Positions 20,766 to 25,163 of a stretch of DNA of 64,000 bases are shown here, one piece after another. Within the stretch, counting starts at the first letter, position 1; every line of letters starts with the position of its first letter. Position numbers and translations under genes: made by a program. Under the pieces are notes generated by a model, which worked only from the letters and a program-made list of their open reading frames with translations, did not search any database and was not told the origin of the DNA. The stretch is taken from positions 64,054,472-64,118,471 of the forward strand of contig NC_060257.1 in NCBI RefSeq assembly GCF_921293095.1. The letters are read 5' to 3'. Source of the stretch: Ischnura elegans (lineage: Eukaryota > Arthropoda > Insecta > Odonata > Coenagrionidae).

Positions 20766-22103
20766 CTCACCCATTAGGGTGGTCCTTATTTTTAAAGTTT
20801 TCGAATTTCTTTTGGGAAGTCCCCCAGTTTTGTTCCATTTGGTGAGAAAATAAATCATGGAAATTATTTTTGCAATCGGATCGGCCGGGAAAACGTGCCG
20901 CATCGCACCTAAAGTATTGAGATAGGGTATTTTTGGGTGTTTTTCGGACATAACTGAAGATGATGTCACTCACGGATTATTCTATTACTTTTTTGTCTTC
21001 TACAACGGCTCGTTAGACATTTTCAGAATATCGCCTCAAATTTCTTTCATTTCTGCCCTTTGGTTCCCGAGATATCGCACCGAGAGTGATCGCGCGCCAC
21101 CCCAGTCAGACACTTTGGGTTGCACGCGGGTTGCATACTCTCAATTTTTGTTGATCATTCTCACTCGTCGTAAAAGCATAAAATTCTTTAGATAAACTTT
21201 AAACTTCGTCAATATAACCTTGAACGTTATATTTACCACTGCTTATCACCAAAACGGACTTAGTAGCAGTGGTTTATTCTATCTAAATCTTATATCTAAG
21301 TGCTCCTATCTAAATTCAGCCTGAATGTTCGCAAAATCTTTAACTTTGGGGCCCGAGCGGCGGTGATTAATAACGTCCCATTTTGAGAAATTTCTGATCT
21401 GATCCCCTGATATAAGTTGGCAACTATCCCGCATAGGGAATAATTGATATCTTTCATTTCTGCCCATTGGTTCCAGGGATATCTGTAAATGTTGTGTACA
21501 AACTAGAAAATTAGATTTATTTGATGAGGCATTTTTAGTTGAAGGTAGATGGTAGGTGGTAGATGAGGTGGATAATGAGGATGAGGTGTTCGGCTTCCGT
21601 ATTTAATGAAATAAAAAGTTTTTTGTTAGTGAAATAAAAATTACTTTTTGTTAGAATTTCATAAATCTCTTCCACCAATTTAACTCCTCATTCAGGATTA
21701 TCACTGAATATTCGCAGATATTTTACTAGCTTTAATCATTGCTTATATGAGTTGTCACCTTTCCAATCAACCGGAACCTTCGATGTAAATGTCACAGGAA
21801 TATTGAATCTTTCGAAAAGATTTTTCGAGTGTCGAGAAATAAAATCCTAGAGTCCCTTGCGAATGAAGTGGACGATATCATTTGGAGGAAAAGAAATTTG
21901 TTTCGGTAACTCGTCTCCATTATCCGTTATATCTGACTCTAAGGCCTCTACCATTCGCTTTTTCGTCTCCACTGGTACATTTTCATCGAAAAATGAAAAG
22001 ACTACAGCTTGTGGGGAAAGGTACCATAAATGGTTCCGAAATTTGCTCAATGCCCTATCATTAATTCCACAATCTGTAAATAAGGACCACCCTACTCACC
22101 CAT
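20766..22103. mobile_element. TIR transposon with perfect 9-bp target duplication
   Basis: Element 20775-22094 (1320 bp). Ends are perfect 17-bp inverted repeats, TAGGGTGGTCCTTATTT at 20775-20791 and its complement at 22078-22094. They are flanked by identical 9-bp direct repeats CTCACCCAT (20766-20774 and 22095-22103). An intact duplication implies fairly recent insertion. A 9-bp duplication is usual for Mutator-like elements, though other superfamilies with 8-9 bp exist. The only coding remnant is a minus-strand C-terminus right beside the right TIR, so this looks like an internally deleted copy of a larger element. Confidence 0.85.
21847..22050 (-). pseudogene. C-terminal fragment of an unrecognised transposon protein
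   Basis: 67 residues ending at a TAG, starting about 30 bp inside the right TIR. The frame stays open upstream of the first Met almost to the TIR. Features: N-H-L-W-Y-L-S at residues 6-12, then F-S-F-F-D at 18-22, then a charged helix-like stretch. The pseudogene at 53.6 kb has N-H-S-W-Y-L-S ... L-A-F-F-D with the same spacing. I recall similar W-Y-L-S proteins in arthropod annotations but cannot name a family. No catalytic triad is visible in this piece. Function is unknown; the setting makes a transposon-encoded protein most likely. Confidence 0.6.
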
Positions 22104-22199
22104 ACTTTCTCCTCTTGCCTAGTATTTTATTTATTCATTTCTCCTTACTACATGGTGTTATCTCTTGCCTGAAAAATTTGCTATTGGCAGAATCCTAAA

Positions 22200-23172
22200 A
22201 TCAAATTCTTCTGGTCGAAATTTCGTTAGCCTATATAATATCGAGCATAAATGGTTACAGCGAAAATTCCAAATATATCTGTTCTACATTATATCTCTCT
22301 TATTTTATGGTATATTGTCATCTGATTGCAGCCTATCCCCAACCTTGTTTAATCTATATATAGATGACGTTCTGAGAACATGAAAGGAGAATAATGTATC
22401 ACCAGGCATAGAATTGGGACCATCTCAATGCTTAAATACAATGCTGTTTGCTGACGATAAGGTTATAATACAAGATAAAGAGGGCACACTCCAGATGGCA
22501 GTACACAGACTACACCAGTTGAGCAAACTATACAACCTGAGCATTTCAAAAACCAAAACAATGACTATGGAATTTTTAGGAAGCAACCCGAAACGAACAA
22601 ATTTTTTTATTGAGGATCAAGTCCTGGAGCAAGTGTCGCACTTCCAGTACTTAGGATGCGATATAACTTATGACGAGGAAAAAGATATTATAAATAAGGT
22701 CAACACTTTCCAGAGAACATGTGGCAAAATTAGAAGAACTCTAAAAATCAAAACAAGAAAAGAGAAACAAATAAAATTTTATAAAGTGATGGCAGTCCCT
22801 ATTGTACTCTACCGATGAGAATTTTGGGTACAAAAATAGAATGAATTGAGGCAGATAGAATAATTGGAAATGAAATTTTTAAGATCAATGAAAGTCTGCA
22901 CACGATTGGATAAAATGAGAAACACTCAAATAAGAGATGAACTGGGTGTCCAGGAAGTCACTGACAAACTACAAGACTACAAACATAGATGGAAGGAACA
23001 TATACTTCGAATGCCAAATAAAATAATTCCCAAACAAGCAACGGAATATCAACCATTTGGCAAGAGAACTATAGGAAGACCAAGAAAAAAGATGGGAATG
23101 TGGCGCCGGAACACGCTTAGTAGCCTAATCCTGGAAGGAAGAAGAAGAAGATTGTCATCTGATCCAACGTAG
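22200..23172 (+). pseudogene. RTE-like LINE reverse transcriptase, decayed
   Basis: In one + frame broken by stops (22381, 22816 and near 22840) the order is: L-S-P-T-L-F-N-L-Y-I-D-D (RT block 4), F-A-D-D catalytic motif near 22450, S-K-T-K-T (block 6), Q-Y-L-G-C-D-I (block 7). A C-terminal segment follows with M-K-F-L-R-S-M-K, W-K-E-H-I-L-R-M and G-R-P-R-K-K before the stop near 23170. This is the layout of non-LTR retrotransposon ORF2 proteins widespread in insects. The enzyme would copy its RNA into a nicked target. The 5' RT blocks and endonuclease are missing here. Confidence 0.85.
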
Positions 23173-23870: not shown

Positions 23871-25163
23871 TCAGGTTCCTCGGGATTGGCTGGTAGTTTC
23901 CCGCCTGGTGGGGTTGACTCCGGATTGGTCTGTCCGTCGTATCGTCCTTTCCCTGTATTCGGTCAGTTTTTTTAGAACGGGTTTCCAAGTGCTGCTAAGG
24001 GAATACCCTGAATCGCGATTAAAGTTCTTCCTCTCCAGTTTAATTTCGATGGCTTCTTTGGTGAGACGGTCCCAAAAACTTTTGGCATGACAAAGTATCT
24101 CTGTTTTTTCAAATTGAATTTTATGGGCGTGTTCGACACTATGCTCAGCAATGGCAGATTTTTCTAGCTGACCAAGCCTCAGATGCCGCTTATGTTCTTT
24201 AAGCCTGGTTTCAATGGTGCGGCCAGTTTCTCCAATGTATGCCTCACCGCACTCGCAGGGGACACGGTAGACACCAGGAATCTTGAGACCGGCTGGGTTC
24301 TTCGCTCGTACCAGCTGTTCCTTCAATTTCATGGGAGGCTTGTGGATGGTCTCGATGTTGTGCCTCCTGAGTATCCTCGAAATCTTCCCCGAAACTGATG
24401 AGACATAAGGCAGGCACGCTCTTGCAACCGGCTTTTCCTTGTCCTCTCTATGGCGCTTATCCCGTGGTTCGGAGGTCCTTTTAAGGGCCATGGAAATTTG
24501 GTGTGCATTGTAACCATTTTGTGCAAAGGTTTTCTTCAGATGTGCCAACTCCGAGGGTAAACTGTTTTGGTCAGAGTTCATGGCTCTATGAAACAGGGTT
24601 GTCAGTACAGCTGAGCGCTGCGAAGGATGATGGTGACTGCCTCCATTCAAGTACAAGTTGGTGCTTGTCGGTTTCCGATAAACGCTGTGGCCAAGAGTTC
24701 CATCGCTCTTCCGTTGGATGAGAATATCCAGGAACGGTAGCCGGCCATCCTTCTCTAGTTCCATGGTGAAGGTGATGTTGGGATGCCGGCTGTTCATGTG
24801 CTCCAAGAACTGGTCAAGGTTGTCCCTCCCGTGTGGCCACACTATGAAGGTATCGTCAACGTACCGGTAGAAATACTTCGGGCGTAGCGGAGCTGAGTTT
24901 AAGGCCTTCTCTTCGAAATCCTTCATGAAGAAATTGGCGACGGCGGGGGATAGAGGGGACCCCATGGCAACTCCCTCAGCCTGCTCAAAGAATTCACCGT
25001 TGAATTGGAAGTAGGTGGAAGTTAAAACGTGGTGAAATAATTTCACTGTGTCGGGTTCAAACTTGCGTTCCAAGAGACATAGAGTATCAGTCAAAGGAAC
25101 ACGGGTAAAAAGTGACACTACGTCTAGGCTAACTAGTAGGTCTGTTACCCATCCAGGTATTTA
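23871..25163 (-). CDS. Penelope-like RT/GIY-YIG endonuclease, N-terminally truncated
   Basis: An open frame from about 25163 to the stop at 23871; the first Met is at 25118 but the frame continues upstream (D-L-L-V-S-L-D-V-V-S), so the true start is lost. Numbered from that Met: G-V-A-M-G-S-P-L-S-P at 49-58 and Y-V-D-D at 86-89, the metal-binding RT site; T-F-T-M-E and L-P-F-L-D palm blocks at 116-131; G-V-Y ... Y-I-G at 282-296 with R300/R305 and E355-E358, a GIY-YIG endonuclease; C288, C290 and several His that fit the Penelope-specific metal site. RT plus C-terminal GIY-YIG in this order is diagnostic of endonuclease-bearing Penelope elements, which copy RNA and nick target DNA in the nucleus. 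No stop or frameshift over 415 residues suggests a young copy, 5'-truncated on insertion. Confidence 0.95.

Follow-up and report, generated by a model that had tools for sequence, protein, structure and literature searches.

Which group of transposons does a short, sharply delimited insertion in Ischnura elegans belong to, and does the protein fragment that it carries derive from a transposase? The insertion lies in a 64,000-nucleotide stretch of contig NC_060257.1 (the window, to which all coordinates refer).

Borders, ends, and fuller copies

The element spans 20775–22094 (1320 bp). Its exact 17-bp inverted ends, TAGGGTGGTCCTTATTT, occupy 20775–20791 (plus strand) and 22078–22094 (minus strand), and it is flanked by an exact 9-bp target-site duplication (TSD), CTCACCCAT, at 20766–20774 and 22095–22103, with 9 of 9 bases identical. 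Both features had been claimed in the sequence-only reading, and both stand. The window contains 122 inverted 13-mer pairs spaced by no more than 5 kb, a single one of which, the pair delimiting 20775–22094, has an exact flanking repeat of 8–10 bp. An inverted pair with a flanking repeat occurs in none of 100 first-order Markov sequences (mean of 10.6 pairs each). The window element is firmly bounded. Within it, a 37-nt direct repeat (21040–21076 and 21447–21483) is 89% alike between its two units.

The host genome searched comprises 1.72 Gb in 110 contigs. The end sequence TAGGGTGGTCC occurs in it 971 times, versus 316 times for a reversed-pattern control, such that the recurrence of the ends, which the sequence-only reading had singled out for checking, is borne out. 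A DNA search with the element returns at least 62 matches among the 40 candidates scored out of 1897. The element is a member of a large family in the host genome. Among the loci examined, window-type ends form eight non-redundant pairs, three of which (the window copy, L030, and L047) are flanked by an exact 9-bp duplication. Near-duplications are found at L003 (8 of 9 bases) and L050 (7 of 9), L020 is better described by an 8-bp reading (7 of 8), and no duplication is found at L006 and L064.

Fuller copies reveal the architecture from which the window copy derives. L047 (2890 bp) and L050 (2620 bp) harbor 547-bp inverted arms that are 96.5% and 97.8% alike, respectively, and in copies of this type the coding region sits between the long terminal inverted repeats (TIRs). 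The window copy has kept the left arm (20775–21319, plus strand, element positions 1–545), which matches both ends of L047 and L050 in inverted orientation, followed by a further non-coding part of the shared left end (21320–21533, up to element position 759). Its right arm is reduced to the terminal 17 bp, which adjoin the coding remnant. The 17-bp inversion is thus genuine but represents what is left of a much longer arm, and with the left arm kept and just 17 bp of the right arm remaining, the window copy is an internal-deletion derivative.

The two arms within a single copy (L047, L050, L072, and L073) are 96.5–98.2% alike, and identity to the window copy is 83–90% for most of the matches listed. 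The higher similarity between arms than between copies reflects either recent insertion of these four copies or homogenization of their arms. More distant ends, TAGGGTGGTCCTCAATGGTCCTTATT, are found at L001:1501 and L002:1501, which are approximately 73% related to the element; an identical 12-base sequence, AAGCTTGACCAT, precedes both, and the two loci are perhaps parts of a duplicated segment.

The coding remnant and its intact relatives

The coding remnant runs from 22074 to 21649 on the minus strand, i.e., inward from the shortened right end, and covers the tail of one exon plus a portion of the following one; its alignment contains three in-frame stops. It aligns with residues 583–722 of the spliced L069 protein (34% identity, E 1.1e-17, tblastn) and also with the L076 and L077 proteins. 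Pfam contains no match to the 82-aa open piece, which has at least 149 matches in the host genome at E ≤0.1 among 150 scored of 397 candidates. The sequence-only reading had recognized a C-terminal piece; homology to intact relatives confirms it as the C-terminal part of a transposase, although the remnant extends beyond what that reading had noted.

The remnant directly adjoins the right end of the window copy, as might a passenger gene captured from the host, which would be uninformative with respect to the transposase. This explanation has practically no probability left. In three sister families (A, B, and D), elements with TAGGGTG ends have this protein as their long gene, and in fuller window-family copies the region lies between the long TIRs; together, these observations refute a passenger origin.

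In sister family A, the first-exon frame encodes 657 residues; five matches cover the entire frame, and three of the five have no stop. The spliced transposases comprise 756 (L069), 748 (L076), and 775 (L077) residues. The alignment of L075, a decayed member of the window family, starts at residue 228 and includes stops. Over 3514 bp, the family A elements L069 and L070 are 99.6% identical. This near-identity, together with their open first exons and exact 8-bp TSDs, suggests recent movement in the host genome. Alongside the window family, the host thus harbors intact members of a sister subfamily that are nearly identical to one another.

A set of residues is invariant across six families, of which three are decayed: the aspartates of DGK and DTT, the cysteine and histidine of CxxH, the tryptophan of RW, and the glutamate of AE in VND.AER. 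The conserved D, D, and E are candidate catalytic acids on the basis of sequence conservation; in the three intact proteins, 65–66 residues separate the first from the second aspartate and 329–335 the second aspartate from the glutamate. A third acid within HLWYLSE was considered and dropped because the residue at that position varies, whereas the AE glutamate is kept in all six families. None of the Cys or His residues before the first aspartate is invariant in the three full-length proteins, which means that a conserved N-terminal zinc finger of the kind represented by the hAT BED domain is lacking. A single-sequence structure model reached a pLDDT of 36 and gave no usable fold.

Profile searches agree with the sequence-only reading that the protein cannot be assigned to a known transposase family by this route. 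The three intact transposases match nothing in Pfam above noise (best E 0.024), nor does the L069 first exon (best E 0.016), both values being short of the curated cut-offs. The hAT C-terminal dimerization domain, PF05699, goes undetected in hmmscan searches (E up to 10) of the three intact transposases and of three C-terminal pieces. As a positive control in the same genome, all 150 candidates scored (of 1723) match this model, although a divergent domain could escape it. PDB sequence searches returned nothing worth keeping, the single match (E 1.9, a lipase) being taken as chance, and viral contigs, phages, prokaryote genome contigs, and PHROGs yielded no confirmed relative of the transposase.

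The 9-bp duplication had been read as a hint of Mutator-like chemistry. The 547-bp TIRs of the fuller copies are likewise compatible with a MULE derivative, and MuDR/MULE transposases share the CxxH motif after the second aspartate. However, a MULE should score against a MULE model, and the Pfam matches obtained at E ≤10 include no MULE-type transposase domain, which disfavors such a derivative. Sister family A, moreover, has 8-bp TSDs and a 13-bp TIR. A Mutator-like origin is accordingly rejected as highly improbable.

Target-site and TIR lengths across the families

TAGGGTG termini are common to the window family and to sister families A, B, and D; the length of the duplication differs among them. 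Of 11 family A copies retrieved, 10 are flanked by an exact 8-bp duplication, and the remaining one, L074, has no recognized end pair within its stretch. Exact 9-bp duplications flank all four family B copies examined and the single family D copy examined, L073. The ten 8-bp sites have T at position 2 in nine cases and A at position 7 in nine cases. All eight exact 9-bp sites have T or C at position 2, and six have A at position 8. TIR length also varies: the arms extend over 547 bp in L047 and L050, 341 bp in L072, and 180 bp in L073, and the exact TIR of family A (L069 and L070) is just 13 bp. In an unrooted tree, the 8-bp family A falls among families with 9-bp duplications, and the deep nodes are weakly supported (57 and 38).

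The split between 8 and 9 bp among related subfamilies offers a modest handle on what sets the target stagger and is the sole aspect that specialists might find of interest, although the occurrence of both lengths in hATm is already in print (PMC6004678).

Relation to hATm and other named groups

hATm, a group that has received little study, was proposed in 2018 as a fourth hAT family. According to its description (PMC6004678), its members have TAGGGTG/CACCCTA termini, TSDs of 8 or 9 bp, and long TIRs in several cases (417 and 575 bp in two members), and they include non-autonomous derivatives. The same termini are found in the window element and in families A, B, and D, and the TSDs are of these same lengths (9 bp in the window element, B, and D; 8 bp in A). 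This agreement in termini, TSD lengths, and long TIRs is specific. Thus, the window element is likely a non-autonomous, decayed internal-deletion copy of an hATm-type cut-and-paste DNA transposon. Membership in hATm is probable by ends, duplications, and long TIRs, each set against the published description, and the inclusion of hATm within hAT follows PMC6004678, whose tree of 102 hAT elements recovers hATm as one of the hAT families.

Several observations run counter to this assignment. PF05699, reported for hATm-6 (PMC6004678), was not detected here; the exact TIR of family A is 13 bp only; and two of the eight window-type end pairs have no duplication, while one fits 8 bp better. The 8-bp TSD of hAT is found in sister family A but not in the window family, which has 9 bp.

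The sequence-only reading had suggested an undescribed or poorly described superfamily. The second term is apt, given that there is no Pfam match and that the published description is short. The first is not supported: the termini, duplication lengths, and long TIRs are those given for hATm (PMC6004678), and on this match the reading as an undescribed superfamily was set aside. With hATm already in print, the element is well bounded but ordinary.

A rival reading is that the TAGGGTG families constitute a separate superfamily within the CxxH clade (hAT, P, MuDR, Kolobok, and Dada), hAT-like in end sequence and duplication length only. They would stand beside hAT, with an N-terminal domain without conserved zinc ligands, a VND.AER region without the hAT dimerization domain, and a TSD length that is fixed within each subfamily and differs (8 versus 9 bp) among subfamilies. 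The lack of any Pfam match, PF05699 included, the absence of an invariant Cys or His before the first aspartate in the three full-length proteins, and the 9-bp TSDs of several families argue for such a separation. In contrast, the nTnnnnAn-like targets, the late glutamate with its spacing of 329–335 residues, and the published hAT tree argue against it, and we regard a separate superfamily as unlikely. If it were real, its sister transposases could reveal how the stagger length of a DDE transposase is determined.

As an hATm-type transposon, the element would be served by a transposase of approximately 750 residues, supplied by intact relatives, that recognizes the TAGGGTG ends. Excision would proceed by DDE chemistry, with the D of HWDGK, the D of DTT..N.G, and the E of VND.AER as candidate residues, and reinsertion at a staggered target cut, followed by gap repair, would leave the 9-bp duplication. 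The enzyme presumably adopts an RNase H-like fold and probably moved the window copy in trans; the element probably works like hAT.

Among hAT elements, Hermes prefers nTnnnnAn targets (PMC10368747), and the 8-bp TSDs of family A, in which T predominates at position 2 and A at position 7, resemble this pattern. The candidate order of D, D, and a late E is also shared. Unlike Hermes, the window family has a 9-bp TSD, and the transposases described here have neither conserved N-terminal Cys/His residues for a BED finger nor a sequence match in the PDB set.

Three further groups were considered and set aside. Merlin elements share with the present families TSDs of 8 or 9 bp and TIRs, which in Merlin are 24–462 bp long (PMC8101967), but their termini begin with GG rather than TAGGG, and no Merlin domain was matched in Pfam. 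Dada shares the C/DxxH motif after the second aspartate (PMC3706591); it differs in having TSDs of 6–7 bp, no terminal inverted repeats in the families shown, and zinc fingers, and it inserts in small RNA genes. AcademH combines a TSD of 9 or 10 bp with an encoded helicase (PMC10045372); here, the TSD is 9 bp in some families and 8 bp in family A, and no helicase is among the profile matches of the three transposases.

The present analysis provides firm borders and a probable name for a repeat family missed by Pfam-based annotation.

A reverse transcriptase remnant, probably non-LTR, adjoins the right side of the element (22123–22815, plus strand); it includes the stretch LSPTLFNLYIDDVL, and its portion at 22384–22815 matches RVT_1 at E 8.5e-5, short of the cut-off. 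A 429-aa open frame on the minus strand (23874–25160) contains an RVT_1 domain (E 2.1e-13) and, by its motifs, is presumably Penelope-like.
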